From Skermania sp. ID1734 (GTDB lineage: Bacteria; Actinomycetota; Actinomycetes; Mycobacteriales; Mycobacteriaceae), in assembly GCF_007489285.1 (NCBI RefSeq), contig NZ_VLIY01000004.1, forward strand, positions 186,001-250,000: 64,000 nucleotides of DNA, read 5' to 3'. The translations under genes were made by a program, and so were the position numbers. The notes below the pieces were generated by a model. The model was not told the origin of the DNA, ran no database searches, and saw only the letters and a program-made list of their open reading frames with translations. Each line of letters begins with the position of its first letter. Position 1 is the stretch's first letter. Positions 2,151 through 48,941 of this stretch are shown here, piece by piece.

Positions 2151-2196
2151 CCGGTCAAAGCGGATGTTTGCGACGTAAAGAATCGTCGGAGCGCGG

Positions 2197-3084: not shown

Positions 3085-3652
3085 GGGCGGCCGTCGAGGT
3101 CAGATGTCGGCGCGCGCGCACTTGCGCCTCCAGCTCCTGCGCCTGGTCCTCTGTCAGGTAGCCCTCGCGACGGCCTGTCTCACAGGCTTGCAAAAGTAGT
3201 CGGGTGTCCGTGCCCAAGGAGAGGCAATCCTGGATCGAGTTCGCAACGCGGACGACCGGCACACCGTCAACCTGGGTGATTGCAGTCGGCTCGATGGCGC
3301 GCCGCCAGATCCGATATAGCTCGCCGCCACGGCGGCGCGGGGCGTACTCGCGCGGGACCGTGACATGAATCAGCGGCGGATTTACGTCGCACAGCTCTAG
3401 TAGATCCAGTGCGGACTCGTGCGAGATGACCCCTCGCCCGCGCGTCCAGGCGACGGCTTCGGCGTAGGACGCAAGCGGCCCAGAGGCGAGAATGGGGACA
3501 CGGTAGACGCCCTGCGCCGAGTGCTCCAACCTGCCCCTGGCCGCCAGCTTGCGGAGCTGAGTGGGGTCGATCCCGGCCGCGACAGCATCCGCGACCGTGA
3601 CATAGCCGTGGTTGTCCACGGCTATGTCAAGCACACGGTCGAACGCGGTCAT
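3077..3652 (-). CDS. AbiEi/MenA-type antitoxin, transcriptional autoregulator
   Basis: The 191-residue protein opens with a winged-helix-like segment (DRVLDIAVDNHGYVTVADAV, then IDPTQLRKLAARGRL) and a C-terminal domain typical of the AbiEi_4 type IV antitoxins, placed directly upstream of and overlapping the nucleotidyltransferase toxin by 8 bp. AbiEi proteins counter the toxin and repress their own promoter by binding inverted repeats. The ATG at 3652 was chosen over a TTG two codons upstream because it abuts a perfect inverted repeat (3653-3687) that looks like the operator. No Shine-Dalgarno sequence precedes it, so the mRNA may be leaderless. A 14-bp-arm hairpin lies inside the first 20 codons. 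Confidence 0.88.
   Translation of the reverse strand: MTAFDRVLDIAVDNHGYVTVADAVAAGIDPTQLRKLAARGRLEHSAQGVYRVPILASGPLASYAEAVAWTRGRGVISHESALDLLELCDVNPPLIHVTVPREYAPRRRGGELYRIWRRAIEPTAITQVDGVPVVRVANSIQDCLSLGTDTRLLLQACETGRREGYLTEDQAQELEAQVRARRHLTSTAARA
3598..3629. repeat. Perfect 14-bp inverted repeat inside the antitoxin coding start
   Basis: Arms 3598-3611 and 3616-3629 are exact reverse complements (TGACATAGCCGTGG) around a TTGT centre. It lies within codons about 8-18 of the antitoxin gene. It could be a second operator for the AbiEi-like protein or an mRNA hairpin limiting translation; both are inference. Confidence 0.85.
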
Positions 3653-3687
3653 GTGCAATACCGTACCAAAAATGCATGGTATTGCAC
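3653..3687. promoter_or_regulatory. Candidate operator of the toxin-antitoxin operon
   Basis: Perfect 10-bp inverted repeat GTGCAATACC / GGTATTGCAC with a 15-nt A/T-rich spacer, ending one base before the antitoxin ATG. AbiEi antitoxins of the S. agalactiae type bind inverted repeats in their own promoter, so this is the natural autoregulatory site. The match of arms is seen directly; binding is inference. Confidence 0.7.
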
Positions 3688-3771
3688 ACCAAATTGCCGA
3701 CTAGGAGCGCATAGTCCACGCCGAGCGCGGCCCAGAGAGCATGGCTTAAGAGATTTCTCAGCAGTCGTTAC

Positions 3772-4188
3772 TCACGGACGGTAGTTCACTATTCGTGGGT
3801 TGGATCCGTTTCCCGCGTCGATGTGGATTTCGCCTCTTGGCGCGTTGACTTGCACTTCAACCATGACCGCATGATCGGGATTCGGATAGTAATGGAGGAC
3901 AGTCAGCGCATTGGGCGGCGAAACACTGAACCGAGCACCGTGCTGGCAATCTCTGCTTATCGCAATGTGCCACTGTCCAGGCGGCAGCTGGAGGTAGGAA
4001 AGCTTCGTCGCATCGAACACGACCGGCCATTCCAACCCAAAGTCGATTCCGCAATAGATGTAAGGCTTCTCCATGGGGAAGGGTAGGGGCGTCGTCGCGG
4101 GCAAATTCGCCGAGTCCTCAGACAGGCCGCATGAGGACAGCGAGCCGATAATCGCCGTCAAACAGAACGACTGGACAATCCGCGACAT
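3772..4188 (-). CDS. Small lipoprotein of unknown function
   Basis: The 138-residue protein starts with a signal peptide (MSRIVQSFCLTAIIGSLSSC) whose LSSC is a lipobox, predicting lipidation at Cys20 and export. The rest is a soluble domain with no family I recognise; it contains scattered aromatic residues and only two further cysteines (near YCGIDF and RDCQH) that could form a disulfide. The ATG at 4188 was chosen because it directly precedes the signal peptide; an in-frame extension upstream has no signal features. Codons ATA, AGA and CTA occur, which are nearly absent from the neighbouring envelope genes, suggesting recent transfer together with the adjacent toxin-antitoxin genes. Confidence 0.75.
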   Translation of the reverse strand: MSRIVQSFCLTAIIGSLSSCGLSEDSANLPATTPLPFPMEKPYIYCGIDFGLEWPVVFDATKLSYLQLPPGQWHIAISRDCQHGARFSVSPPNALTVLHYYPNPDHAVMVEVQVNAPRGEIHIDAGNGSNPRIVNYRP

Positions 4189-4350
4189 GCCGGACAGTCT
4201 GATCCTGCCCTGGAATTCGCCATCACAAGGACTACACAGATTTCCGTCCCTGGAACGCATGCGATTGGGAATCACGCACAATTTCTACGCCGTCGCCACT
4301 TGTCTAAGGCCTCTCAGACTCAAAGTCACGCCACAGTCATCGCGCCGAAC

Positions 4351-5847
4351 TCACGCGATCGAATACGCCTCCAGCGGAAACTTGCCCGCCTCCCGAATCG
4401 CGTTCAGGGTCGAGGTCGGCCGCAGAATGACCGCTTCACCGTGCTGGTTGATGTAGTACGTCCGCGACGTCGCGCAGCTGCCCAGGTAGAAAACCGAATC
4501 GCCGAGCTTGTTCGTCATCCGGTCGAGGAACTCGGTGTTGGCGTCCTCGGTCACCTCGAACGTGGTCGCGTTTCGGCGAGCCAACTCGCCGAACAACCGC
4601 TTGATGTGGCGCATCTGCGTTTCGATCGTGGTGAAGTACGACAAGCCGCTGTACGAATAGGGACTCGACAGTGTCAGGTAATTGGGGAAATAGGGCACCG
4701 CCACGCCTTCGAAGGCCTGGAAGCGGTTGTCGCGCCACCACTTACCGAGGTTGCGTCCTTCGCGGCCGATGATTTCGAACGCGGGAAAGTTGACGTCCCA
4801 GATGTTGAAGCCGGTGGCTAGGACCAGCGTGTCGATCTCGGTGACGCGGCCGTCGGTGGTGACGATCCCGTGCGGTTCGATCCGCTCGATGCGGTGGGTT
4901 TCCACCTGCACGTTGCGCTTGGTCAGGGCCGGGTAGTAACTGTTGGAAAACGTTGGCCGCTTACAGCCGAAGTCGTAGTCGGGCGTCAGTTTTCGGCGCA
5001 GCTTTGCGTCGCGAACCTGCACCAGCATGTGGGCCCGCGCGAGCAGTTCGGCGCCCTTGTTGAGCACCTTCGCCTGCCGGTAATGCAGGACGGCGCTCAC
5101 CATCATCAACTCCAGCGCACTGGTATTGACCATTCGTGCGGCCTGCTGGGTCACCGGGATACGGGCGAAAAGCTGTTGCACCACACCGGGAATCGGGGCG
5201 TCGATCTTGGGCACCACCCAAATTGGCGTTCGCTGGAACACCGTCAGCGCCTTGGCCTTTCGGGCAAGCTCGGGAATGAGTTGCACTGCGGTCGCGCCGG
5301 TCCCAATGATCGCTACGCGGCGGCCGGTTGCGTCATAGCTGTCGTCCCAGTCCGCGGTGTGGACGATCTTGCCGGCGAACGAGTCGATGCCCTCGATGTC
5401 GGGAGTATTGGGCTGCGACAGGTAACCCGTTGCGGTCACCAGGAATCGGGCGGTCAGCGTTTCGCCACCGGCGAGGGTGACCACCCAGCATCGGGCTTCC
5501 TCGTCCCAGCGTGCGCCGTCGACTTCTGCGTTGAAGCGCATGTGCCGACGCAGGTCGTATTTGTCGGCGACATGGTCGGCATACTTTTTCAGTTCTGCTC
5601 CGGGGGCGAACAAGCGCGACCAGAACGGATTCGGCTCGAAGGAATACGAGTAGGTGACCGAGGCGATGTCGACGGCAAGCCCCGGATACCGGTTGACGTG
5701 CCACGTGCCGCCGAGGTCATCCTCCCGGTCCAGGATCGCGAAATTTTCGAATCCGAGTCGCTTGAGTTCGATGGCGGCGCCCATGCCGCCGAATCCCGCG
5801 CCGACGATGAGGGCCTGGTACGTCGGGCTGTTCCGTTCAGTGGCCAT
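4351..5847 (-). CDS. Baeyer-Villiger-type flavin monooxygenase
   Basis: The 498-residue protein has an N-terminal FAD site (GAGFGGMGAAIELKRLG, about 13-29), the Baeyer-Villiger fingerprint FxGxxxHxxxW as FAGKIVHTADW (about 155-165), and the NADPH site GTGATAVQLIPELA just after it. This predicts insertion of oxygen next to a ketone, as in EthA and related mycobacterial enzymes; the substrate cannot be read from sequence. The ATG at 5847 has AAGG upstream at proper spacing. It diverges from the membrane glycosyltransferase-like gene at 6098 with a 250-bp gap that holds a dispersed hairpin repeat. Enzymes of this family can activate ethionamide-type prodrugs; that is not shown here. Confidence 0.9.
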   Translation of the reverse strand: MATERNSPTYQALIVGAGFGGMGAAIELKRLGFENFAILDREDDLGGTWHVNRYPGLAVDIASVTYSYSFEPNPFWSRLFAPGAELKKYADHVADKYDLRRHMRFNAEVDGARWDEEARCWVVTLAGGETLTARFLVTATGYLSQPNTPDIEGIDSFAGKIVHTADWDDSYDATGRRVAIIGTGATAVQLIPELARKAKALTVFQRTPIWVVPKIDAPIPGVVQQLFARIPVTQQAARMVNTSALELMMVSAVLHYRQAKVLNKGAELLARAHMLVQVRDAKLRRKLTPDYDFGCKRPTFSNSYYPALTKRNVQVETHRIERIEPHGIVTTDGRVTEIDTLVLATGFNIWDVNFPAFEIIGREGRNLGKWWRDNRFQAFEGVAVPYFPNYLTLSSPYSYSGLSYFTTIETQMRHIKRLFGELARRNATTFEVTEDANTEFLDRMTNKLGDSVFYLGSCATSRTYYINQHGEAVILRPTSTLNAIREAGKFPLEAYSIA

Positions 5848-5927
5848 CGCACACCTTCTGGCGTTCCAGCAGCATGCACTGACATGCCGCTCTGTATGTA
5901 AACGACGGTAGCACCGCTTTACCCAGT

Positions 5928-5984
5928 GGAAGCAGGGCTCCCCTACTGCACGCTGACGCAAGTAGGGGTCCCCGGCTTCCGTGG
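5928..5984. repeat. Dispersed hairpin repeat, copy A
   Basis: This 57-bp intergenic block aligns without gaps with 39520-39576 (44 of 57 positions identical by eye). It can fold: outer GGAAGC pairs with GCTTCC and inner CCCTACT with AGTAGGG around GCACGCTGACGCA. It lies in the promoter region between the monooxygenase and the membrane protein at 6098. The two copies have compensating differences in parts of the stem, which suggests a structured interspersed element rather than chance. Confidence 0.7.
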
Positions 5985-6097
5985 TGCCGCACGCCGGCGT
6001 CGCGCGTCGGTGTCGCGCCAGGCGCACGCGCAAACCCGACGATTCGGCCGAACAGCGTCGCATCGGTAAACTCGACGCGACCAGGTCTGGAGGACGT

Positions 6098-7873
6098 GTG
6101 ACGCAGGTGCAGGAGAGGCTCAGCCTCGCGACCAGCACCGTTGACCGCACCACACCCATCAAACGCCGCTGGTTGTGGCCCGATTGGATCGCCGCTGTCG
6201 TCTACCTCACCGCCGCCGGCGCGGTCCTGTCCGGCCAGTGGCGCGATCTCACCAACGGCTACCTGGCCAAGAGCGGCCAGGACCAGACGATGTGGGAATG
6301 GTTCTTCGCGGTAGCGGCGCACTCGGTGGCGCACCTGGAGAATCCGCTCGGCACGACGCTGCAGAACTTCCCACTCGGCGTGAACATGATGGCCAACACG
6401 GCCATGTTCGGGGTCAGCATCCCGCTCGCGCCGATCACCCTGGCGTTCGGCCCGACGGTGACGTTTGCGCTGGTCCTGACGCTCGGGCTGTTCAGCACCG
6501 CGCTGGCGTGGTACTGGCTGTTCTCCCGCCACCTGGTCAGTCGGGGGGCGGCGTTTCTGGGCGGGGCCCTGTGCGGCTTCTGTCCGGCGATGGTTTCGCA
6601 CGCCAACGCGCACCCGAACTTCGTGGTCCTTCCCCTGCTGCCGATCATCGCGTCGCTGTTGCTGCGCATCGTCAACGGCGACGCCCGGCCGCGCCGGTCC
6701 GGCCTAGCGCTCGGCTTGCTGATTGCGGCGCAGATCGCGCTGGGTGAGGAACCGCTGCTCATCTTCGCCGTTGCTTTCGCGATCTTCGCGGCCACCTATT
6801 ACCTCAGCGCCGCACGGGGCGAACGGCGAGCCGGCATCCGGGCCGCTCGCCAGCGCCTCGCACGGCCATTGGCGATAGCGGCGGCCGTGGCACTCGCGCT
6901 GACCTGCGTGCCGTTGTGGTGGCAGTTCTTCGGCGCGCAGAGTTACCGGTCGATCGACCACGGGATGATGGGGAACGACCTGAAGTCGCTCGTCCAGTTC
7001 CCGTCTGAATCGCTCGGCGGCATGTTCTCGCCGGGACAGAACGTGGCGATCAACCCAACCGAAGAAAACGCCTACTTCGGCTGGCCGCTGCTGCTCTTGG
7101 TGACGATCACCGCCATTTGGCTGTGGCGTAACCGCATCGCCCGGGCCGCGACCGTCACTCTCCTAGTGACCGCGGTGCTGTCGCTGGGCAGCGAACTGCA
7201 GATCGGCAAGCGCTCGACCGGCATCCCGCTGCCCTGGCGCTGGGTGGGCAATCTGCCGTTGCTCGAGTCAGTGCTGGAAACCCGGTTTGCGATGGCAGCG
7301 GTGCCGGCCATCGCGATCGTGCTGATGCTGGCCACCGACCGGGTTTTCCGCCGCGGCGACCGGTCGTTGCCGCTGCTGTGGAGCGCCGGTCTGGCGCTGA
7401 GCCTGGTTCCGCTGGTTCCGACAGTGCTGCCGGTGATCGAGCGCAGCCCCACCCCCGACTTCTTCACCTCCGGGGACTGGCGGCCGTACCTGCATGGTGG
7501 ATCTATGGTGATCGTGCCGCTACCACGCCCGGAGCACGCCGACGCGCTGCGCTGGCAGCGGGAAAGCGACTTCGGATTCCCGATCGCCGCGGGATATTTC
7601 GTCGGCCCGGTGGGCGCGGAGAAGAAGGGCAAATACGGCCCGGAGGACCGCCCGACCGCGCTGCTGCTGCGCAAAGTCCAGCGCACCGGCGCGGTGCCGG
7701 ACATCGACGCGGCCACCCGCGCGCAGGCGGCCAAAGACCTCAGCTTCTGGCGCGCCGACGTGGTGGTCCTGCCACCGGGCGAGAATAATCCGGCGCTGCG
7801 CGACACCGTGCAGCGACTGCTCGGCCGACCGGGCCGGCAGGTCGACGACGTATGGGTATGGGACGTGCGCTGA
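6098..7873 (+). CDS. Polytopic membrane protein, GT-C glycosyltransferase-like
   Basis: The 591-residue protein has about ten hydrophobic segments, starting at residues 25-45 and ending near 470, followed by a soluble C-terminal domain of about 120 residues. A conserved acidic patch (SGQDQTMWEW) sits in the first predicted outer loop, where GT-C enzymes keep their catalytic Asp. No closer family is recognised. GTG at 6098 is chosen because GGAGGA lies 4 nt upstream and the preceding codons look non-coding. It ends 67 nt before embC, so a role in wall glycan synthesis with a polyprenyl-phosphate sugar donor is reasonable but inferred. In M. tuberculosis no such gene lies between aftA and embC. 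Confidence 0.75.
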   Translation: MTQVQERLSLATSTVDRTTPIKRRWLWPDWIAAVVYLTAAGAVLSGQWRDLTNGYLAKSGQDQTMWEWFFAVAAHSVAHLENPLGTTLQNFPLGVNMMANTAMFGVSIPLAPITLAFGPTVTFALVLTLGLFSTALAWYWLFSRHLVSRGAAFLGGALCGFCPAMVSHANAHPNFVVLPLLPIIASLLLRIVNGDARPRRSGLALGLLIAAQIALGEEPLLIFAVAFAIFAATYYLSAARGERRAGIRAARQRLARPLAIAAAVALALTCVPLWWQFFGAQSYRSIDHGMMGNDLKSLVQFPSESLGGMFSPGQNVAINPTEENAYFGWPLLLLVTITAIWLWRNRIARAATVTLLVTAVLSLGSELQIGKRSTGIPLPWRWVGNLPLLESVLETRFAMAAVPAIAIVLMLATDRVFRRGDRSLPLLWSAGLALSLVPLVPTVLPVIERSPTPDFFTSGDWRPYLHGGSMVIVPLPRPEHADALRWQRESDFGFPIAAGYFVGPVGAEKKGKYGPEDRPTALLLRKVQRTGAVPDIDAATRAQAAKDLSFWRADVVVLPPGENNPALRDTVQRLLGRPGRQVDDVWVWDVR

Positions 7874-7926
7874 ACGGCGCTCGACACAACACCGACCGGC
7901 ATCAGGATTTGCTCAGTCTCGGCCGA

Positions 7927-7943
7927 TACCATCTGGCCTTGTG
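7927..7943 (+). promoter_or_regulatory. Leaderless promoter of embC
   Basis: A -10 element TACCAT (7927-7932) lies 8 nt before the GTG start at 7941, with no Shine-Dalgarno sequence. This spacing fits leaderless transcription, common in mycobacteria with TANNNT -10 boxes. The block GGCCGATACCATCTG is repeated almost exactly before the next emb gene. Confidence 0.6.
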
Positions 7944-10900
7944 CCAACCGCCGCCAACAGCGTCGCCAGATCTGACGAACCGGCTTTTCGTAAGCGGCAA
8001 ACCTACCGGCTGATTGCCATCGCCACCGGTTTGCTGGGGATCTTGTTCGCCGTCGTTACGCCGATACTCCCGGTCAAGCAGGACGCCGCAAGCATCAGTT
8101 GGCCGCAGGCTGGGGCGAAAAATCTTACGGCGCCGCTGGTTTCCTACACACCACTCACGTTCGACGCCTCGGTGCCGACGTCGACCATCGCCCAGCTCGG
8201 CGCCAAGGGCGGAACCCTGCTTTCCACGGTTCCGGTGGCGTCCGGCAAGGCAGCGACCGACGGTTTGGTCATCAAGGTCGAACCCGGCAAGGATGGCGCT
8301 CCCGCAACGGTCTCGGTGGTTCAGCGACTCAACCCACTGTTGCGCGCCCAGGTCACCCAACTAGGGCCAGATGCACGGATCACGCTGCATTCCGACTCTG
8401 CCAATACTCGTGCGGAAATTACGGATTCTGTTGGCTCGGACGGCAAGCCGCTCGCCTTCGATGTCCCGCGAGACCTGCGCCCGCAGGTGGTCGGTATCTT
8501 CACCGACCTGAATTCGGTTGCCGTTCCCGGACTTTCGGCGCATCTCGACGTTGACTCGCGGTTCTCCATGTCGCCCAGCGCGCTGAAGCTGGCGGCCATC
8601 GCGCTCGCGGTGGTGTTGACGCTGGCGTCACTGGTCGCGTTGCATCTGCTCGACGGCGATGACGGACGGCGCGCACGGCGTTTCCTGCCGGCGCACTGGT
8701 GGCGGGTCACCCCGGTTGACGCGGTGGTGGTGGGCACGCTGGTGCTGTGGCACTTCGTGGGTGCCAACACCTCCGATGACGGCTACATCCTCAACATGGC
8801 GCGAGTGTCCGAGCACGCCGGATACATGGCCAACTACTTCCGCTGGTTCGGCGTACCCGAGGCCCCGTTCGGCTGGTACTACGACGTGCTCACCTGGATG
8901 ACGCGCGTCTCCGACGCGAGCCCCTGGATGCGCTTGCCGGCGCTGCTGTGCGCGCTCATTTGCTGGATGGTTATCAGCCGAGAGGTACTGCCGCGGCTCG
9001 GTGCGCGCGTATCCCATAACAAGGTTGCACTGTGGACGGCCGGACTGGTCTTTCTTGCCTTCTGGTTGCCTTACAACAACGGCCTGCGCCCGGAGCCGAT
9101 CATCGCGCTCGGCGCGCTGCTGACCTGGGCGTCGATCGAACGGGCCATCGCCACTCGGCGGTTGTTGCCCGCCGCCGTTGCGGTGCTGATCGCAGCGTTC
9201 TCACTGGCCGCGGGACCGACCGGGCTGATCGCCGTGGCCGCGCTGATCGCGGGTTCGCGGCCGGTGTTGCAGATCATCATCCAGCGCGGTCGGGGCGTAC
9301 TCGGATACCTGTCGCTGCTGGCTCCCGGCGTCGCGGCCGGCACGCTGGTGTTGGTCGTCGTCTTTGCCGACCAATCGCTGGCCGCGGTGCGCGAGTCCAC
9401 GCGCGTGCGCAAGATCATCGGCCCCAACGTCGCGTGGTTCGACGAGCGCTACCGCTGGGACTCGTTGATGACCATTTCACCCGATGGCTCGCTTGCCCGG
9501 CGCTTCGGCGTGTTCGTCATGCTGCTGTGCCTGCTCGTGTGCATTCTGGTGCTCGTCCGTGGCCGTGGTCGCATTCCGGGCACCTCGCGCGGACCGTCGG
9601 CGCGGATCCTCGGCATCGTGTTCGCGTCGCTGTTCCTGATGTGGTTCACCCCGACCAAGTGGACGCATCACTTCGGCGTGTACGCCGGGCTCGCAGGCTC
9701 ATTGGCGGCCCTCGCCGCGGTTGCCGTCGGCACGGCGAGTATTCGCTCGCGGCGCAACCGGACGCTGTTTGCAGCAGCGGTGGCGTTCCTGCTGGCGATG
9801 TGCTTCACCAGCTCGAACGGCTGGTGGTACGTGTCGAGCTACGGTGTGCCGTGGTGGGACAAGCCGCCGATGGTCGCGGGCAAGGGATTTTCCACGGTCT
9901 TTCTGGGGCTGACGGTGTTGTTGCTGCTGTTGGCGGCCTGGCACCACTATCGCGAGCCGTACCTGCGCGCCAACGGCCGCGACACCGAGCGGGTGCGCCG
10001 CTTCGCCCCCGCGCCGCTGACCATCGCCGCCGCGTTTGTAGTCCTGTTCGAGGTGGCCTCGCTGCTCAAGGGCGCGGTTTCGCAATACCCCGCCTATTCG
10101 GTGGCCCGGTCGAACCTCGATTCGGCGGCGGGTGACATCTGCGGCCTGGCCAACGACGTGTTGGTGGAGACCGATCCCAACGCGGACATGCTGCGCCCGA
10201 TCACCGGTTCGGTCGCCGACGGACTCTCGGCGTCGAATACCGGCTTCACCCCCAACGGCGTGGCCGAGGACCTCACCGCCGATCAGGAAGAGAAGACCGA
10301 GGGCACCGCCAACACGATTCGCACCACCGAGGCGAAGACCACCGACACCACCGGCGCCGGCACGGGCGGTGGCACGGAAGCACAGGCCGGCGTCAACGGC
10401 AGCACGGTCATGCTGCCGTTCGGCCTCGATCCCAAGACCACGCCGGTGCTCGGCAGTTACCAACAGGGTGAGCAGAAGCAGGCATCGTTGACCACCCAGT
10501 GGTACGGCCTCGATCGCGGTGGCCCGGTGCTGGCAATCACCGCAGCCGGTCGCATTCGCTCGGTGGACAAGGACGGCGTCGTGACCTATGGGCAGGACCT
10601 GCGCGTCGAGTACGGCACCCGCGGTGCGAACAACAGCGTGCACGTTCTCGGTTCGGTAGTCCCCTACGACATCGGTCCGTCGCCGTCGTGGCGCAATCTG
10701 CGCGTCCCGCTCGACGAAATACCTTCGACGGCCAACGTCGTACGCCTGGTGGCGGTGGACAACGACATCACGCCCAAGCAGTGGCTCGCGGTCACCCCAC
10801 CGCGAGTGCCGAAGTTGCGCACGCTCCAGGACGTCGTCGGGAGCCAGACGCCGGTGTTGCTGGACTGGTCTGTCGGTCTGGCGTTCCCGTGCCAGCGCCC

Positions 10901-39586: not shown

Positions 39587-40348
39587 CTACATCCGCTCGG
39601 CGTACACGGCCATCGCATCACGCACGAACTCGGCGCCGGACCGACCACCGTAGTTCGCCGCGAAGCGCTCGTCATCGACGTACATCTGCCCCAAGCAGCG
39701 AAACCGCTCCGCGGAGGGCTGCTGACCCTGCCAGCTAAGCACGATCCAGTCGTAGTGCCGCTGCACGATCGATTGAACCGTCGGGTCATCCACCGGCAGT
39801 CCCGCGTCGCGCGCCTGCGCATAGTCGGCGGCGATGTCGACGTGGGCTTGCTGGAACGCCTTCTTGTCGGCATCGGACTTAGACCGCCACCAGCGGTCGC
39901 TGCTTTCATACGCTTCCTTACCCCAGCGCTCGATCACCTCGTCCTTGTACTGGGTGTGGTCGAAGCCGTCGAATGCTTCTGTTGCCATCAGTGGTTCACC
40001 TCCACGGGACTTACGAATGGTTGTCTTGACCGACTCGATTTGGCGGGCGAGCCGGGCCTGGGATTGTTCGAGAAGCTGCAGGTGGGTTTCGAGCGCGGCG
40101 ACCGGCTCCTGCTCGCCATCGAGAATTTGAGCGATGGCCGGTAAGCCCAATCCGAGGTCGCGCAGCAGCAGGATCCGCTGCAACCGGATCAGGCAATCCT
40201 GGTCGTAATAGCGGTAACCGTTGGTCCCGACTCTCGACGGACGCAAGAGTCCGATCTCGCCGTAATGACGCAGGGTTCGACTGGTGGTACCGGCGGCTTT
40301 GCTGAGGTCCTGAATCGACCACTCGGGTTTCGCACTCACACAACCCAT
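39587..40348 (-). CDS. MerR-family regulator with TipAS-like ligand domain
   Basis: The 253-residue protein has an N-terminal MerR helix-turn-helix (SIQDLSKAAGTTSRTLRHYGEIGLL, about 11-35; GYRYYDQDCLIRLQRI), a coiled-coil dimerisation helix (about 80-115) and a C-terminal TipAS-type domain (about 140-250) with many aromatic and His residues. TipA-like proteins bind thiopeptides or other drugs and activate efflux or catabolic genes. The palindrome at 40357-40371, directly upstream of its ATG, is its likely own operator. Confidence 0.92.
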   Translation of the reverse strand: MGCVSAKPEWSIQDLSKAAGTTSRTLRHYGEIGLLRPSRVGTNGYRYYDQDCLIRLQRILLLRDLGLGLPAIAQILDGEQEPVAALETHLQLLEQSQARLARQIESVKTTIRKSRGGEPLMATEAFDGFDHTQYKDEVIERWGKEAYESSDRWWRSKSDADKKAFQQAHVDIAADYAQARDAGLPVDDPTVQSIVQRHYDWIVLSWQGQQPSAERFRCLGQMYVDDERFAANYGGRSGAEFVRDAMAVYAERM

Positions 40349-40479: not shown

Positions 40480-40935
40480 ATGACCACCTACGACCGCAAG
40501 CGCTACCTGGAGCCCGGCACCGGCGCGTTCGCCCAGGTGCCGAACCGCATCATGGCGCGCCTCGCCAAGTGGGGCATCAGCGTCGCTGGCAGCCGACTGC
40601 TGCTGGTGCAGGGTCGCAAGACGGGTGCCTGGCACAGCACACCGGTCAACCTGCTCGAATACAACGGCGATCGCTACCTCGTTGCGCCGCGCGGAAACAC
40701 CCAGTGGGTGCGCAACCTGCGCGCGAGCTCGACAGGACAACTGCAACTCGGGCGCCGCCGAGACACATTCACCGCCGTCGAGCTTGCCGACGACGCCAAG
40801 CCCGAACTGCTCCGGGCCTACCTGCAGCGGTTGAACTCGCAGGTATCCGGATACTTCGATGGCGTCGGCCCCGACGCGGACGACTCCCGACTGCGCGAGA
40901 TCGCGCCCGGCTATCCCGTGTTCCGGATCGCCTGA
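40480..40935 (+). CDS. DUF385 / F420-dependent nitroreductase-family protein
   Basis: The 151-residue protein has the split beta-barrel pattern of the deazaflavin-dependent nitroreductase (Ddn) family: SRLLLVQGRKTGAWHSTPVNLLEY, then LVAPRGNTQWVRNLRA. Ddn relatives use reduced F420 for quinone or nitro reduction; the substrate here is unknown. ATG at 40480 has GGAGAAGG 5 nt upstream. It is divergent from the MerR gene and convergent with the TetR gene, overlapping its 3' end by 25 bp. Confidence 0.88.
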   Translation: MTTYDRKRYLEPGTGAFAQVPNRIMARLAKWGISVAGSRLLLVQGRKTGAWHSTPVNLLEYNGDRYLVAPRGNTQWVRNLRASSTGQLQLGRRRDTFTAVELADDAKPELLRAYLQRLNSQVSGYFDGVGPDADDSRLREIAPGYPVFRIA

Positions 40936-41474
40936 GCGGGCACCACCGGAGCCACGAATCGTTCGATCAAAGCTCGCTCCTCGTCCGGACTGCCCTCGGG
41001 GACGGTCAGCAGCGACACGATGATCCGCACGATCCATCGAGCGACCATCCGCAAGTCGTCGGAGGCGAGACCGGCCCGACCCAAGAACGCCACCCCGAGC
41101 GCCTCGATCACCTCCGACGACTGGGCGATCTCGGCGGCGATCCCGGCCTCGCCGAGCCGGAACCAAGCAGCCAGCGTCGGCCGCGCCCGGACCAGCGCGA
41201 TGGCCCGGGTCATGGCCTCGACGAGCACGGCATCCGGCGCGACCCCCTCAATGCCGCGCGCCACCTCCTCGCCCACGCGCCGCGCCTCCCGGTGCACGAA
41301 CGCCAGGTGCAACGCTCGACGACTATCGAAGTATCGGTAGAGCGTCGCGCGCGAACAGCCCGCGGCCCGGGCAATGTCGGCCATGCCGGTCGCCTCGATG
41401 CCGCGGTCGAGAAACAACTGCTCGGCGGCGTCGAGAATGCGCTCAGCGGCGGCGGCCGAGCGTTCCTCCTTCAA
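40911..41474 (-). CDS. TetR-family transcriptional regulator
   Basis: The 187-residue protein has the TetR DNA-binding domain (ERILDAAEQLFLDRGIEATGMADIARAAGCSRATLYRYFDSRRAL, about 10-54) and a hydrophobic ligand-binding C-terminal part. The only start codon in frame after the upstream stop is TTG at 41474. It lies 78 bp downstream of the P450 gene and is probably co-transcribed with it. The gap contains short GC-rich near-repeats of the CTCGCTCCGGTCCTCGCTGCG type. Likely targets are the P450, the divergent ligase or the DUF385 gene. Confidence 0.9.
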   Translation of the reverse strand: MKEERSAAAAERILDAAEQLFLDRGIEATGMADIARAAGCSRATLYRYFDSRRALHLAFVHREARRVGEEVARGIEGVAPDAVLVEAMTRAIALVRARPTLAAWFRLGEAGIAAEIAQSSEVIEALGVAFLGRAGLASDDLRMVARWIVRIIVSLLTVPEGSPDEERALIERFVAPVVPAQAIRNTG

Positions 41475-41552: not shown

Positions 41553-42773
41553 TCACGCCGCCGCGCGGAACGGCACACTCGTCGGCCGCCGCACATAGTT
41601 CCCGCCCGCATAGGTGACGGCGTCGACATCCACGTCGAAATCTGGGCACCGCGCCAGCAGTTCCGCGAGCGCGACTCGCGCCTGCATCCGCGCGGCAGCG
41701 GCACCGAGGCAGTGGTGGGCGCCGTGGCTGAACGTAAGAATCTGCTTCGGCCGCCGCGTCACGTCCAAATCATCGGCGTCCGGCCCGAATTCCCGGGGAT
41801 CCCGGTTAGCAGACGCGTACAGCAGCAATACCTTTCGGCCTGCCGGGATGGTCTTGTCGCCGACTGTCACGTCGGTGGTCGCAGTGCGGGCCAGACCCTG
41901 CACTGGCGAGGTGAGCCGCAGAAGTTCCTCGACCGCGTCGGGAATGAGCGCGGGCTCAGCGATGAGCAGCTGCCGCTGGTCCCGGCGCTGCGTGAGCAAT
42001 TGCACTGCGCCGCCGAGCATTCCAGTGGTGGTGTCGTTGCCGCCGGTCACCATCGTGAACGCAAAACCGAGTATCGACAGCAGGCCGGCGACGTCGCCAT
42101 CGGCACCCATCCCGGCCGCGACGAGGTGCGAAATCGGATCATCGCCCGGCTCAACGCGACGACGCTCGATCAACTCGGTGAAGTAGCCCATGAGCTCGGT
42201 CACCGCCTGCGCGGCCTGCAGCGTGTCGCCGAGAGCGTTTGCGGCGACGATGGCGTCGGTCCACCCGTCGAACCTGCCGCGATCCTGCTCGGGCACACCG
42301 AGGTAGTGCGCCACAACCATGCTCGGCAGCGGCTTGAAGAGCTCGGTCACTATGTCGCCCGACCCGGCCGCACGAAGGCGGTCGAGCCGTTCGATGACAA
42401 ATGCCCGCACCGCCGGCTCCACCGCGGCGACCTGCCGCGGTGTGAATCCCTTCGACACGAGGCGACGAAAGGCCGTGTGGTCCGGCGGGTCGAGCATGAC
42501 CAGCGGCGGATTGTCCTGCAAGCCAATCTTTTGCAGCTCGCCGTAGTGCACGGTGAGTCCATCGGCCGAGGAGAACGTTTCAGTGTCACGGGCGGCGGCG
42601 TACACGTCGGCGTAGCGGGACAACACGTAATAGTCCGCGTCCGGATCACCCGGCGGTACGACGTGGTGGCACGGGTCATGGTCGCGCAGCGCCGCGTACA
42701 TCGGCCACGGATCGCGCCAGGTATCTCCTGCGCGCGGCACGAATGACGCTTTCGGCAACACCTTTGCCTGCAT
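41553..42773 (-). CDS. Cytochrome P450
   Basis: The 406-residue soluble P450 has the I-helix GGNDTTT (about 242), the ExxR pair (EELLR), and the heme loop FSHGAHHCLGAAAAR with the Cys ligand near residue 355. It belongs with bacterial CYP families acting on fatty acids, sterols or terpenes; the substrate cannot be read. It is divergent from the SRPBCC-acyl-CoA ligase gene across 129 bp containing an exact palindrome, which suggests joint control and a shared pathway. Confidence 0.95.
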   Translation of the reverse strand: MQAKVLPKASFVPRAGDTWRDPWPMYAALRDHDPCHHVVPPGDPDADYYVLSRYADVYAAARDTETFSSADGLTVHYGELQKIGLQDNPPLVMLDPPDHTAFRRLVSKGFTPRQVAAVEPAVRAFVIERLDRLRAAGSGDIVTELFKPLPSMVVAHYLGVPEQDRGRFDGWTDAIVAANALGDTLQAAQAVTELMGYFTELIERRRVEPGDDPISHLVAAGMGADGDVAGLLSILGFAFTMVTGGNDTTTGMLGGAVQLLTQRRDQRQLLIAEPALIPDAVEELLRLTSPVQGLARTATTDVTVGDKTIPAGRKVLLLYASANRDPREFGPDADDLDVTRRPKQILTFSHGAHHCLGAAAARMQARVALAELLARCPDFDVDVDAVTYAGGNYVRRPTSVPFRAAA

Positions 42774-42794
42774 ATCTCAACTATGAGACACATG

Positions 42795-42806
42795 GACATA
42801 TATGTC
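42795..42806. promoter_or_regulatory. Palindromic site between P450 and ligase genes
   Basis: GACATATATGTC is a perfect 12-bp palindrome in the divergent promoter region, with a second small inverted repeat CTCA-ACTA-TGAG at 42777-42788. A TetR-type operator controlling both directions is the likely role. Confidence 0.55.
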
Positions 42807-42902
42807 TAGTAGGTTGCGTCCAGCAACCCCGCGTCCTTGACCCGCGGACTCACCGGTCGGTACAAATACGCAAACCCTCTCGCTGGGCTGACGGGAGTCA
42901 GG

Positions 42903-44966
42903 GTGGTATCCGACGTCGTGGACTGCAGCGCGGTGCTCGAGCATCCGCGCAGCGAAATCTGGACCATCCTCAACACCCCCGAGTTGCTCGTCCGCTTTTT
43001 CCACCACATCGGCCGGTGCGACAGAGTGACGGCGGATGCGCCGGACCAACCGGCGGTCTACTCCGTGCACGTCGGGACCGCCGCGGTAGGAATTCGCGTC
43101 CATCAGATCCAACCGGTGACCGTGCGCGCGAAATCCGAGATGCTTATCGAGGCCGTCGACGCGGACGGCTTCGCGTCGATTCGCCTCGCCGACGCCAAGG
43201 GCGGGCGCAGTACCCGCGTGACGGTGACCCTGTTCAAAATCGCCACGCTGCATCGGGCGGTCGCGGCCGCGGACAACGCTGCCGCCATCTCCTGGGTGCT
43301 CGACGGGCTCAAACGCGTCGAGGACTATCTGTCTAACCGGCCGACGTCGGTGCTCACCAATAACGGTGACTCGCGCTCGTTGCAGTTGAGCGTTGCCATG
43401 ACCATGATCCGCACCGGAGTGGTCCGAACGGCGCGGCCGGATCGAGGTGTACGACAACTCAATTCGCTTGCAAAATTCGGCGTCACAGTGGCCGGCGGGT
43501 TCGCCGCAGCGGCAGCACATTCGCCAAAAAACCCTGCGATCACCGACGATTCGACAACGCACACCTTCGCCGAGGTGCACGAGCGCTCGAATCGACTCGC
43601 CAGCGCGCTCGAGACGCGCGGACTGGACGCAGATTCCACCGTCGGTGTGATGAGCCGCAATCACTATGCGCTCGTCGAATGCCTTGTTGCCTGCAGCAAA
43701 CTGGGCGTCACCGCGGTGCTCTTCAATACCGGCCTGGGTACCCGACAGGTCGAAGACATCGGCAGCCGCCACGATTGGTCGGCGCTACTCGTCGATGACG
43801 AGTTCGACCCGCTCATCCAGTACCTGCCGCACGACATACCGCGGATCAGCCTGCAGCCGGCTTCGTCGATCCCCGACCGGATTTCCACCGCGGAGCTGAT
43901 CGACAGCGCGGGAACGAAATTCGACCGCCCGGCCGAGCCTGGCCACATTGTCGTGCTCACCTCCGGCACGAGCGGGACCCCGAAGGGTGCGCGGCGGCCG
44001 ACACCCAAGGGGTTCGGTCCGATCGCGGCCATGCTCTCCCGCATGCCACTGCAGATGAACGATCGCATGCTCATCGCCGCGCCGCTGTTTCATAGTTGGG
44101 GTTTCGCGGCCCTGCAGATCAGCACACCGATTCGGGCCCATGTCATCTTGCAATCCCGGTTCGACGCCGAGCAGTGTCTGGCGGCCATCGCGCAGCACCG
44201 GTGCACATCACTAATCGCCATCCCCGTGATGATCCAGCGCATGCTCGACCTGCCCGAACGCGTTCGGCGCCAATACGACACGTCCAGCCTCAGGGTTGTC
44301 GCGTGCAGCGGGTCACCGATGTCGGCCACGCTCGTCACCGACTTCATGGACGCGTTCGGCAACGTGCTGTACAACTTTTACGGCTCCACCGAGGTGTCCT
44401 GGGGGACCATCGCCGACCCTGCCGACCTGCGGGCCGCGCCGATGACCGCTGGCAGGCCGCCGCTCGGCACGACCGTTGCGATAGTCGACAGCCGCGGCCG
44501 GGCCGTGCCGCAGGGTGCGCTGGGCCGGATATTCGTCGGCAACGACATGCTTTTCGACGGTTACATTGATGCGTCGGCACCAGAGCGTGCAGACAACATG
44601 ATGGACACCGGCGATCTCGGCTATCTGGACGCCGATGGCCGGTTGTTCGTCGCTGGCCGTGACGACGAAATGATCATCTCGGGTGGGGAGAACGTCTTTC
44701 CGCGACCGGTCGAGGAAGCGCTGTCCTGCTTGCCGCAGATCAGCGAGGTCGCCGTCATCGGTGTGCCGGACAAGGAATTCGGTCAGCGTCTCGCGGCATT
44801 CGTAGTCCCGCGCCCGGGCGTACGCATCGATGAAGACATGGTGCGCTCGTACGTACGGCACCGGCTGAGCCGCTTTGCCGTGCCACGCGACATCACCTTC
44901 GTCGACGAACTGCCTCGCAATGCCACGGGAAAGGTCCTCAAGCGCCAGTTACCCGGCGCTCGCTGA
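42903..44966 (+). CDS. SRPBCC domain fused to acyl-CoA synthetase (FadD-like)
   Basis: The 687-residue protein joins two unrelated domains. Residues 1-150 look like an SRPBCC/START-type lipid-binding fold (VLEHPRSEIWTILNTPELLVRFFHHIG, ending in a long helix IS WVLDGLKRVEDYLS). Residues about 180-687 are an adenylate-forming ligase with LTSGTSGTPKGA, YGSTEVSW, TGDLGYLD and the final catalytic Lys in PRNATGKVLK. It should activate a fatty or ring-bearing acid to its CoA ester. GTG at 42903 has GGGAG 5 nt upstream; a longer in-frame start at 42837 lacks a site. Divergent from the P450, convergent with the SpoIID-like gene (6-bp gap). Confidence 0.88.
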   Translation: MVSDVVDCSAVLEHPRSEIWTILNTPELLVRFFHHIGRCDRVTADAPDQPAVYSVHVGTAAVGIRVHQIQPVTVRAKSEMLIEAVDADGFASIRLADAKGGRSTRVTVTLFKIATLHRAVAAADNAAAISWVLDGLKRVEDYLSNRPTSVLTNNGDSRSLQLSVAMTMIRTGVVRTARPDRGVRQLNSLAKFGVTVAGGFAAAAAHSPKNPAITDDSTTHTFAEVHERSNRLASALETRGLDADSTVGVMSRNHYALVECLVACSKLGVTAVLFNTGLGTRQVEDIGSRHDWSALLVDDEFDPLIQYLPHDIPRISLQPASSIPDRISTAELIDSAGTKFDRPAEPGHIVVLTSGTSGTPKGARRPTPKGFGPIAAMLSRMPLQMNDRMLIAAPLFHSWGFAALQISTPIRAHVILQSRFDAEQCLAAIAQHRCTSLIAIPVMIQRMLDLPERVRRQYDTSSLRVVACSGSPMSATLVTDFMDAFGNVLYNFYGSTEVSWGTIADPADLRAAPMTAGRPPLGTTVAIVDSRGRAVPQGALGRIFVGNDMLFDGYIDASAPERADNMMDTGDLGYLDADGRLFVAGRDDEMIISGGENVFPRPVEEALSCLPQISEVAVIGVPDKEFGQRLAAFVVPRPGVRIDEDMVRSYVRHRLSRFAVPRDITFVDELPRNATGKVLKRQLPGAR

Positions 44967-44972
44967 TCGAAT

Positions 44973-46553
44973 CTACTTCTGGGGCAATGCGTTCAACAAC
45001 GCCGACGTCTCTACCACCTGGGCGCCGAGTTCCTGAGTCCAGATGATGACGCCGCCGGTGAAGGTGCGGAACTTGCCCGCGCCTTGCGGCAGATCCATTT
45101 CGGGCCCCAATGGCGCGCCTAGCGGCCCGGCTGCACCGCCGGTCGATTGGTACTTCGCATCAATGGCCGAAACATCCGCATTGACCTTCGTTTGGTCGGG
45201 CACAGTCGGGTCGACGCCGGTGGGTGCGGGAGTCGGCGGTTGCGCGGGCGCCGGAGCCGGTTCTGGAACGGGCGCGGGCGCGGGCGCCGGAGCAGGCGGG
45301 GGTGGCGGGGTCGCGTTCGTGCCCTCGGCCACGTCGAAAAGATCAGAATCGAGATTGAGTTTGCCGCGGGCGTCGTCACCGCTGCACTCCACGGTGCCAG
45401 TAGTCCCCACCACCTTCAGCTTGGTCACCCGACCGGCCGGATCTCGGTCCTCCACCGAAATAGATTGCAAGTCTCCGACATTGAAGGCCGCAGCGATGTC
45501 TCCCGCCGATACGGTCTTGGTCCAGCCGCTGTTGTCGGGCGCAGCCGCGTCCCCGGCATCGACCTTGCCGGTGTCGGTGACGCCGCCGGTTGATGCGGAG
45601 TACTCAGCGCGGAAGACCTGGCCGTCGCTCATCAGCACCTTGCCCTGGGTCGAGCGAACGGCGTCCGTGGTGCGCGGGTCTTCCTTCGCAGAGCCACCGT
45701 AGACCTGGCAGCTCTGGGTGTCACAGGTTTGCGCGTAATCCCAACGCTTTTCGGCGATGGCATACGAACGTGCCGCAATTGCCTGGGCGCGCAATGCTTC
45801 CGCGCCACCCTGGTCCGCCCAGCCCGGAGACATCTCGCTCGGCACCACACCCAATAAATAGTCCTCGACGTCGACGTAGTTGATAGCGCGCGATTCCTTG
45901 CCATCGAGCGCGACACCGAGGGAACCGCGATAGGTGGTGTCGGTTCCGCACAGCTTCAGGTGCTCGCCGATCGGACGGTCCGGGTCTCGGTTGATCGGGT
46001 CCACCCACGGGTTGTCGGTCGACCCCTGCCACACCACCGTGCCGTCGCATCCGTCGGTGACTGTCACGTCCGCGCCCTGCGCAGTAGGAGTCAGGTGCGC
46101 GACCTCACCCTGCGCGAAGCGGCGCCCGGCTACGTCGAAACCGGCATCGGATGTCACGACCAGCGGTTTGTTGTCGAGCCCCTCGAGCCGCACCCGGATC
46201 TTGGTGGGCGGAATGGTTCCGAACGAGGTGCCGGTGTAGTAGTACGCCAAGATGCGATCGGCCGACCAACCCTGTTTCGCGTAGCCGAACGCGCCCCACT
46301 GGCCCATCCCGCGACCATGGCCATCGCCACGCCCGGTGAACGTGTAAGGCGTCTGCGCCGCAACAACTTCGCGGATTGCCACCATCGTGAGCCGGCCACC
46401 GATGGCGACCGCTCCGATGAGCAGCAAGGGCACCATCAGCATCGCGGTCGGACGCCACCCGCGACCGTGTCGGCGGCCGCGCAGATACCGCGTACGCCCG
46501 GGCGAGGGGTTGCCCGGACGGCGCAGGACCTGGACGGATCTGGTGCGTCCCAT
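44973..46553 (-). CDS. SpoIID/LytB-domain wall protein with LGFP-like C-terminus
   Basis: The 526-residue protein has an Arg-rich cytoplasmic start, one membrane anchor (about 38-58) and an extracytoplasmic SpoIID/LytB domain with LLGVVPSEM and EALRAQAIAARSYA. A Pro/Ala linker (about 425-455) leads to an LGFP-like segment (GPLGAPLGPEM, FTGGVIIW). SpoIID of spore formers is a lytic transglycosylase that cuts glycan strands lacking stem peptides; this organism shows no sporulation genes here, so the role is wall remodelling by inference. ATG at 46553 has GAGGAG upstream. Divergent from the PGRP amidase gene. Confidence 0.88.
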   Translation of the reverse strand: MGRTRSVQVLRRPGNPSPGRTRYLRGRRHGRGWRPTAMLMVPLLLIGAVAIGGRLTMVAIREVVAAQTPYTFTGRGDGHGRGMGQWGAFGYAKQGWSADRILAYYYTGTSFGTIPPTKIRVRLEGLDNKPLVVTSDAGFDVAGRRFAQGEVAHLTPTAQGADVTVTDGCDGTVVWQGSTDNPWVDPINRDPDRPIGEHLKLCGTDTTYRGSLGVALDGKESRAINYVDVEDYLLGVVPSEMSPGWADQGGAEALRAQAIAARSYAIAEKRWDYAQTCDTQSCQVYGGSAKEDPRTTDAVRSTQGKVLMSDGQVFRAEYSASTGGVTDTGKVDAGDAAAPDNSGWTKTVSAGDIAAAFNVGDLQSISVEDRDPAGRVTKLKVVGTTGTVECSGDDARGKLNLDSDLFDVAEGTNATPPPPPAPAPAPAPVPEPAPAPAQPPTPAPTGVDPTVPDQTKVNADVSAIDAKYQSTGGAAGPLGAPLGPEMDLPQGAGKFRTFTGGVIIWTQELGAQVVETSALLNALPQK

Positions 46554-46781
46554 GGGTTCTCCTCGGCTGGTCGGAGGGTGCTCTTGCGAGTCATCGCGAC
46601 GAGACAGAGTCTCAAGTAATAGTTGAGTGTTGGGGTATTTGTGGTTAGTGTGACTGATGTTGCGTTCTGAAGCACGATAAGCGACAGAAGTAACAGCGCC
46701 ATCACAGTTTTTGAGAGCCATACCGCGTTCGCAGCCTTGCGATCGACCACCGCTGGCACCGCACCACCGAGGGAGAATCTC

Positions 46782-48941
46782 TTGCCGCACCGTCGACGGA
46801 AGCCTTCGATCGTCCTTGGCGTCGTCAGTGCGATGGCCGTCGCCAGCCCATTCGGGGCACACTTTCTCGCATCGTCGTCATCGCACGTTCGCAACACCGA
46901 CACCACGTCCGCGGCAATTCCCACGAAGATCGCTCAGGTTGCACTCGCGTCCATGCCGGACATCGTCATTCCCGTCAAGGAACTGACCGGCCTCAACCTG
47001 CCCGACCTGCACCTGTCTGATCTGAAGAAGATCAAGCTGCCCGACAAGATCCCCCTGCCCGACGGACTGTTTCCCGCGCCCACGCCAGGTGACACGTCTG
47101 CACCTGTCCAACTCGGTCCGGATCAACTACCGTCGGGCGTCAGCGATTTGGGTGCCACGGTCAAGGAGATCACCCGCGATTCGCCATTCAGCATGATCGC
47201 CCTCACGGCTAAGTCACTATCTAATTCCGTTGCGCACGTGCGGGTTCGACTTCCCGACGGCACCTGGGGGCCGTGGGTGACTATCGATCCGTTGATGACC
47301 GGCGGGTCTGACAAGACCGGTCCCAACGGCATTTTCGGTACCGAGCCCGTTTATGTGGGCGACACCAACGCTGTTCAGGTGCTGATCAGCCACCCGGTGT
47401 CCGCGCCCGTGCCGCCGCCCGCCCCCGCCCCTGCGGCCGCACCGCTGGGCTACCGGCCGGCAGCCTTCTCCCAGCCGTTGCGCACCGATTCCGACAATTC
47501 CACCGCCAACGGCAACGCGAGCGCCAACGACGGCGACCCGTCGATCACGCTCATCCAGCCCGGAACATCGCCAGACGACGGCAATTTGGACCAGCAAGCG
47601 CAGCCGCTGCCGGGCGGCGGACCGCGCGTCATCACCCGGGCACAGTGGGGTGCGGACGAATCCATCCGCTGCCAAGGGCCCACCTACGACGACGGACTGG
47701 GCGGCGCGGTGATTCACGACACCGCGACCAGCAACGACTACTCGAAGGCCGATTCCGCGGGGATCGTGCGCGCGATCTACGCCTATCACGCCCAGACCTT
47801 GGGCTGGTGCGACATCGGCTACAACGCTGTCGTCGACAAGTACGGCCAGATCTTCGAGGGTCGTTACGGCGGGCTCGACAAGAACGTGGAGGGCGCCCAC
47901 GCCGGCGGGTTCAATGAGAACACGGTCGGGGTGTCGATGATCGGCAACTTCGACAGCGTCGCGCCCTCAGACGCCCAACTGCAGTCCGTCGGCCAATTCT
48001 TGGGCTGGCGGCTCAAACTGGCCAACCTGGATCCCAAGGGCCACACCACCATGTATTCGGAAGGAACCTCCTACACGCCCTACAAGGAGGGCGAGGCCGT
48101 AAATCTGCCTATCATTTTCGCGCACCGCGACGTCGACAACACCGATTGCCCGGGCGATGCGGCCTACACCAAAATGGACGAAATTCGCGATCTTGCAGCG
48201 AAATACGCCAGCGGATCCGGCGATCCCACCACCGGACTGCAGCAAAAGGCCGGTGGCGCACCGCTCAGCGGGCCGATGCAGGCATTGGCCGACCTGGCCA
48301 AGCAACTTCAGGCCAAGTCCAATGCGCCCGTGACGCCGCCCGGCGATGCACCAGCCCCGCCGGCGCCGCCCGCCGCACCCGCACCCGCCGCTCCACCGGC
48401 TCCCCCGGTACCGACCACTGCGGCGGCAGCACCGGCACCGGCCGACCCCCCGGCGGCTCCCGCACCCGCTGCGCCACCCCCCGCACCCGAGCAGTCCAAG
48501 CTCGGCGACGGCCCGAACTCGCTGCAACCGCTGCTCGACGTGGCCAAGGGCTTCCTGCAGGCGAACGGCATGAACCCGGTCGCGCAGCGGTGGGTCGCCA
48601 CCGGGGCGGAGAACGGCCCGCTCGGCAAGGTGGAATCACCGCTGCTGCCAGCCAAAGAAGGCCAGCACTATGCGAAGTTCGCCAACGGCTACGTCTTCAC
48701 GTCGTCGTCGGGAAAGACCATCGTCGTGGCCGGAAAGATTCTCGAGAAGTTCATCGAGATGGGCCTCGACGCGAGCAAGTTGGGTCTGCCGCTGGCCGAG
48801 GAATACGTTGTGCCAGAAGGGATGCGGGCCGACTTCGAGCACGGGTCGCTGATCTTCAACCAGGCGACGGGTTTCGTGACCACGCTGCTCAACACCTACA
48901 CCAGCAGCTACGACCAGGCGTACAACAGCCCAACCGGCTAA
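46782..48941 (+). CDS. Secreted PGRP-type N-acetylmuramoyl-L-alanine amidase with LGFP repeats, Rv3811 type
   Basis: The 719-residue protein has a signal peptide (to about 28), a region of unknown fold, an amidase_2/PGRP domain at about 285-485 (RVITRAQWGADES, GGAVIHDTA, IGYNAVVDKYGQIFEGRYGG, FAHRDVDNTDCPGD), a long Pro/Ala linker and C-terminal LGFP-like repeats (ENGPLGKVES, SKLGLPLAEEY). The zinc ligands His (VIHDTA), His (AHRD) and Cys (DCPG) are present. It should cut the peptide from muramic acid in peptidoglycan. TTG at 46782 is chosen because GGGAGA lies 5 nt upstream and the signal peptide begins there. Gene order matches Rv3811. Confidence 0.9.
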   Translation: MPHRRRKPSIVLGVVSAMAVASPFGAHFLASSSSHVRNTDTTSAAIPTKIAQVALASMPDIVIPVKELTGLNLPDLHLSDLKKIKLPDKIPLPDGLFPAPTPGDTSAPVQLGPDQLPSGVSDLGATVKEITRDSPFSMIALTAKSLSNSVAHVRVRLPDGTWGPWVTIDPLMTGGSDKTGPNGIFGTEPVYVGDTNAVQVLISHPVSAPVPPPAPAPAAAPLGYRPAAFSQPLRTDSDNSTANGNASANDGDPSITLIQPGTSPDDGNLDQQAQPLPGGGPRVITRAQWGADESIRCQGPTYDDGLGGAVIHDTATSNDYSKADSAGIVRAIYAYHAQTLGWCDIGYNAVVDKYGQIFEGRYGGLDKNVEGAHAGGFNENTVGVSMIGNFDSVAPSDAQLQSVGQFLGWRLKLANLDPKGHTTMYSEGTSYTPYKEGEAVNLPIIFAHRDVDNTDCPGDAAYTKMDEIRDLAAKYASGSGDPTTGLQQKAGGAPLSGPMQALADLAKQLQAKSNAPVTPPGDAPAPPAPPAAPAPAAPPAPPVPTTAAAAPAPADPPAAPAPAAPPPAPEQSKLGDGPNSLQPLLDVAKGFLQANGMNPVAQRWVATGAENGPLGKVESPLLPAKEGQHYAKFANGYVFTSSSGKTIVVAGKILEKFIEMGLDASKLGLPLAEEYVVPEGMRADFEHGSLIFNQATGFVTTLLNTYTSSYDQAYNSPTG

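Follow-up and report, generated by a model that had tools for sequence, protein, structure and literature searches.

Two kinds of described protein resemble the gene product analysed here. The mycobacterial SRPBCC protein MSMEG_5634 has a deep hydrophobic pocket that binds acyl-AcpM of C36-52 (PMC9014085). It (as MSMEG_5634 / Rv0910) and MSMEG_0129 share the helix-grip fold of the N-terminal domain described below, but are stand-alone proteins of about 145 aa. The TcmN, ZhuI and WhiE aromatase-cyclases have a like fold (Z 14-15), also with no ligase fused to it. On the enzyme side, the acyl-CoA ligases FadD12 (Rv1427c type) and FadD2 have an N-terminal helical lead-in and ANL motifs in common with the ligase described below; their models contain no SRPBCC domain. 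FadD12 has an adjacent acyltransferase, whereas the present gene has none. A search of open-access literature gave no description of this architecture, in line with the preliminary description of this DNA, whose author knew of no pathway with such a fusion.

The fusion gene lies in the window, that is, the whole 64,000-nucleotide stretch of Skermania sp. ID1734 that was analysed (Table 1). The preliminary description had placed a SRPBCC domain fused to an acyl-CoA ligase here, with a divergent P450 and a TetR close by. The fusion was recovered as one 687-aa protein (residues 1-147 plus ~163-683), and both neighbours were present as described. By sequence and structural model, the window protein is an acyl-CoA ligase, a FadD12/FadD2-related ANL enzyme, with its own N-terminal SRPBCC domain.

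Table 1. Features of the fusion gene and its nearest neighbours, with positions counted from the first letter of the window
Feature	Position	Strand	Remarks
Fusion gene	42903..44966	+	GTG start, 687 aa, single open frame; 80 full-length relatives
N-terminal SRPBCC/helix-grip domain	42903..43343	+	residues 1-147; AlphaFold2, structure matches, homologues' Polyketide_cyc2 matches
Linker and conserved N-terminal helices of ligase part	43344..43532	+	residues ~148-210; ...GVVR..RPDRGLRQL.SLAKWGFTLAGG...
AMP-binding (ANL) N-terminal catalytic domain	43500..44564	+	residues 200-554; Pfam AMP-binding, PF00501 (E 1.1e-58); P-loop TSGTSGTPKG, YGSTE
AMP-binding C-terminal domain	44709..44933	+	residues 603-677; Pfam AMP-binding_C, PF13193 (E 3.9e-21); ends in catalytic Lys of TGK
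CYP130-type cytochrome P450, divergent neighbour	41553..42773	-	CYP130 sequence match
TetR-family regulator	40911..41474	-	Pfam TetR_N; paired with CYP130 in 8/8 genomes
Intergenic P450/fusion, 129 bp	42774..42902	.	GACATATATGTC palindrome and CYP130-type promoter element reading towards P450

Domains of the window protein

The open frame spans 42837-44966 (+), 709 aa when counted from its TTG. The GTG start of the fusion agrees with the conserved start of its relatives (MVTDVID...), and GGGAG lies 5 bases upstream of it. In the full-length model (pTM 0.82) the N-terminal domain (pLDDT about 90) was followed by the ANL ligase.

Pfam gave no match to the N-terminal 150 residues of the window protein at any E up to 10, and PDB sequence searches with the N-terminal domain, alone or as a profile, returned nothing significant. 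A profile search of the window sequence alone would thus not reveal the assignment of this domain. Polyketide_cyc2 was matched by 32 of 45 homologous N-terminal domains (E up to 1; best 1.7e-9) and Polyketide_cyc by 30 of the 45. The AlphaFold2 model built from the profile of these 45 domains (pLDDT 93, pTM 0.87) had a predicted beta-alpha-alpha-beta6-alpha topology (E5-12, H16-23, H26-32, six strands, H125-143), with the elements in helix-grip order. Its best solved matches were START/SRPBCC proteins at Z 14-15 (Foldseek/VIA-align), led by the mycobacterial stand-alone START protein MSMEG_0129 (Z 15.0, with a sequence identity of just 12%) and followed by TcmN ARO/CYC (14.9); PYL receptors and CoxG had similar values. 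On this model the N-terminal domain is a SRPBCC/START-type helix-grip fold, so that the SRPBCC assignment of the preliminary description stood.

At least 90% of homologues had hydrophobic residues at positions 53/55/57, 80/82, 91/93/95 and 106/108/110 of the N-terminal domain, and Arg was conserved at the alternate strand positions 56, 94 and 105. Judged by strand parity, this pattern fits a greasy cavity and a basic outer face. The SRPBCC part could also be a second catalytic domain, with the acid or the acyl-CoA as the substrate of an aromatase/cyclase-like activity or of some other lyase. Besides its closeness to the TcmN fold, Y29 and R31 (conserved in 96% of homologues) and R56/R75/R94 (73-78%) recall the Tyr/Arg set of TcmN (cited in PMC9014085), to whose residues they may correspond. 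However, the window protein departs from this pattern, with Leu at 29 and His at 56, the residues invariant among the 45 homologues were limited to F33, L95, W131 and G135, none of the acid-base type, and no polyketide synthase directly adjoined the fusion gene. A catalytic SRPBCC part is accordingly judged improbable.

In the ligase part, the P-loop, YGSTE, TGD, GRDDEMIISGGEN and TGK motifs of ANL acyl-CoA ligases were conserved; residues of the P-loop and YGSTE were mostly invariant among the 45 homologues, and T675-G676-K677 were invariant. ANL ligases with these motifs intact form an acyl-AMP and then an acyl-CoA, and the ligase part would do the same. The nearest NCBIfam models were FadD12 (NF009921, 504.6 bits against a curated cutoff of 850) and FadD2 (NF005859, 439 bits against 875), with homology from residue ~163. 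By these curated thresholds the ligase is related to FadD12 and FadD2 but is neither. Mean pairwise identity was 59% in residues 166-210 vs 35% in the SRPBCC part. The ligase of the fusion had 69 matches in the window genome.

Distribution and maintenance of the fusion

The related-locus search gave 80 loci that were 51-61% identical along residues 1-683; they came from Antrihabitans, Rhodococcus/Rhodococcoides, Nocardia, Mycolicibacterium, Mycobacteroides and Pseudonocardiaceae. Both domains were in a single continuous frame in all 109 extracted relatives. At the family level the N-terminal domain was found in 86 of 401 genomes, in frames of at least 685 aa save for one weak match. At the order level its profile was matched in 31 of 298 genomes, including more divergent members in Pseudonocardiaceae, and the frames were of about 690 aa or more, except for one weak match in a 394-aa frame. 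Strong matches in the class-level search were confined to Mycobacteriaceae, Nocardiaceae and Pseudonocardiaceae. The plasmid collection contained no fused copy at 80% query coverage, and the ligase-only search of 61 genomes returned no unfused ligase above 48% identity at full length.

In the maximum-likelihood tree of ligase domains, the 49 fused rows of the window type (type A), a sample partly picked via the N-terminal domain, formed one clade (100/100) with no unfused rows inside. Among 11 close pairs, dN/dS was 0.05-0.41 for the N-terminal domain vs 0.02-0.19 for the ligase, and in most pairs the value of the N-terminal domain exceeded the ligase value by a factor of two to three. These values place the N-terminal domain under purifying selection. 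The preliminary description had named separate genes for the two domains, with the long form an annotation artefact, as what would overturn it. An artefact was ruled out by the same-frame N-terminal domain in all extracted relatives and by purifying selection, the profile matches also falling, one weak match apart, in frames of ~690 aa or more. The SRPBCC-ligase fusion is real and old, and common to many mycobacteria, rhodococci, nocardiae and Pseudonocardiaceae.

The gene was present in two tandem copies at two Nocardia loci (L091 and L109). A further type A relative (L199, G030:C1, 7036-9048, -) lay beside glf and had a very long branch in the tree. Neither the P-loop (SSGVGATYRS in its place) nor the catalytic Lys at the C-terminus was retained in its ligase, and its SRPBCC domain matched the profile at E about 1e-33; it is likely a dead ligase that retains the lipid-binding domain.

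Genomic context of the fusion gene

The neighbouring P450 scored 647 bits to the M. tuberculosis CYP130 (structure) and 233 bits to the next best family, which identifies it as a CYP130 orthologue. The P450 and TetR of the window are the same pair as CYP130 (Rv1256c) and the TetR Rv1255c, reported as a two-gene operon (PMC4482099). TetR adjoined CYP130 in all eight genomes checked, and the pair was unlinked to the fusion outside the window genome and Antrihabitans. The TTGACA-N-TGTCTCA-N-ATG element before CYP130 was identical with or without an adjacent fusion; this operator-like promoter travels with CYP130-TetR in the absence of the fusion.

The preliminary description had suggested that the SRPBCC part could hand the ligase a bulky hydrophobic acid, possibly one oxidised by the P450. 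In such a pathway CYP130 would turn a hydrophobic compound into an acid for activation by the fusion. In its favour, the two genes of the window diverge from one 129-bp intergenic region, and the two are adjacent in three Antrihabitans genomes as well. These were the only cases of adjacency, 4 among the 37 genomes in which the positions of CYP130 and of the fusion were both listed (coordinates compared by eye), and in Antrihabitans G015 the fusion was kept at the glf locus with CYP130 on another contig. Moreover, CYP130-TetR is a module with its own promoter, found also without the fusion, and the sole reaction reported for CYP130A1 is dextromethorphan N-demethylation (PMC6469627). A P450-ligase unit was thereby rejected as a general arrangement, and the proposed pathway is very improbable. 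CYP130-TetR is most likely a chance, lineage-specific neighbour, and the P450 is probably not part of the function of the fusion. As the fusion adjoins CYP130 in few genomes and has other neighbours elsewhere, the P450 is unfit for inferring the ligase substrate.

Clustering of the neighbours at the 80 type A loci gave sets that differed from lineage to lineage (permease and phosphorylase; PhyH and FMN dehydrogenase; WS/DGAT; sigma factor and EamA), and no neighbour was common to Nocardia, Rhodococcus, Mycolicibacterium and Pseudonocardiaceae. With neighbours differing lineage by lineage, gene context was ruled out as a route to a pathway, and none can be assigned to type A.

The gene for UDP-galactopyranose mutase (glf) was near the fusion in the window and at loci L199, L056 and L200-L203, which belong to Antrihabitans, a Mycobacteriaceae MAG and G030, but was not near it in other lineages; this proximity probably reflects inheritance of gene order. 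In the window, a MerR regulator with a TipAS drug-recognition domain (39587-40348, -) adjoined glf, and a SpoIID/LytB-domain protein (44973-46862, -) and an amidase (46737-48941, +), each with LGFP repeats, were next to the fusion. Elsewhere in the same genome, an operon-like run (L207, G000:C5:3000-18000, 1501-9992, +) encoded, in order, MaoC, thiolase, a stand-alone Polyketide_cyc2 protein, SDR, alpha/beta hydrolase, SDR, a FadD2-like ligase and aldehyde dehydrogenase. This run pairs a stand-alone SRPBCC protein with a ligase related to that of the fusion, which brings the two activities together in trans as well.

Type B fusions and the role of the SRPBCC domain

A second group of fusions (type B; L194-L198) came from the ligase-only search. 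Like the window type, these proteins carry a SRPBCC domain, a short linker and a FadD12-like ligase in one chain. They were 45-48% identical in the ligase and had a different N-terminal extension, starting MKFEHKIEIDAPPEVVWEACADP..., in which Polyketide_cyc2 scored above the gathering score in both proteins scanned. Unlike the window type, they thus have a canonical Polyketide_cyc2 domain; they also formed a separate clade of the ligase tree (100/100), and their start was overlapped by 4 bases by an acyltransferase gene of one cluster in all five genomes (three genera). The overlapping acyltransferase was PF01553 in all three scanned. A single origin of types A and B was neither rejected nor shown (AU p = 0.13).

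A homologous acyltransferase also adjoined FadD12-type ligases with no SRPBCC domain in four genomes, and in one of these (G028) the ligase beside it was a true FadD12 by NCBIfam (1022.9 bits; cutoff 850). No PF01553-type acyltransferase was found in the window or near the type A loci searched. Going by locus numbers and homologues, Rv1428c is probably the M. tuberculosis counterpart of the acyltransferase that adjoins fadD12 (Rv1427c). The acyltransferase BCG1489c, which the literature equates with Rv1428c, is located on lipid bodies, and its disruption lowers triacylglycerol accumulation in hypoxia (PMC3503283). Judging from the overlapping acyltransferase gene, the acyl-CoA of type B may go into acylglycerol/triacylglycerol-type lipid synthesis.

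The location of BCG1489c, together with the docking of acyl-AcpM by MSMEG_5634 (PMC9014085), is also consistent with a SRPBCC part that serves for targeting or solubility, docking the ligase to membrane, lipid droplet or acyl-carrier protein with no handling of the substrate. Pure docking would not require a hydrophobic pocket, whose character is conserved, and such an appendage is about as improbable as the catalytic domain considered above.

The hydrophobic pocket positions, the precedent of MSMEG_5634 and the trans operon of the same genome favour instead a SRPBCC part that is an in-cis hydrophobic acyl holder for the fused CoA ligase, a reading held with about even confidence. Handing a hydrophobic acid to the ligase would be the most plausible role of the N-terminal domain. 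The domain would hold the acyl chain of a poorly soluble (long-chain or bulky) carboxylic acid, or of the acyl-CoA product, and the bound ligand would thereby reach a higher local concentration at the ligase. Against an acyl holder, the genomic context of type A is not conserved, and the evolutionary rate of the N-terminal domain, two to three times that found for the ligase, would also be expected of an appendage with a structural or regulatory role.

Such divergence, as often seen with ligand specificity, would equally suit a sensor or allosteric domain, in which the SRPBCC part binds a hydrophobic metabolite, not the substrate itself, and so turns the ligase on or off, much as PYL receptors switch phosphatases. 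The N-terminal domain resembles PYL/ABA receptors in fold, and an interface could be made by the conserved Arg at alternate strand positions, which probably point outward. The PYL likeness is, however, general to the superfamily (12-14% identity), and substrate handling accounts at least equally well for a stand-alone SRPBCC protein encoded with a FadD2-like ligase in a beta-oxidation-type operon. A sensor is therefore possible but rather unlikely.

A more specific form of the acyl holder would make the SRPBCC domain an in-cis acyl-chain carrier, the ligase activating acids otherwise too long or bulky, such as meromycolate-length chains or sterol-derived acids, with the chain passed from pocket to active site. 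This form is put forward tentatively, its chance being as small as that of the sensor. If true, it would amount to a self-loading CoA ligase, a previously undescribed arrangement. Through type B, the SRPBCC-ligase architecture is linked to an acyltransferase, and the mycobacterial counterpart of this enzyme probably has an effect on triacylglycerol storage. Genomes of Mycobacteriales encode dozens of fatty-acid ligases, few of them with an assigned substrate, and the fused pocket would offer a direct handle: it could be expressed alone, and the lipid found in it would point to what the ligase activates.
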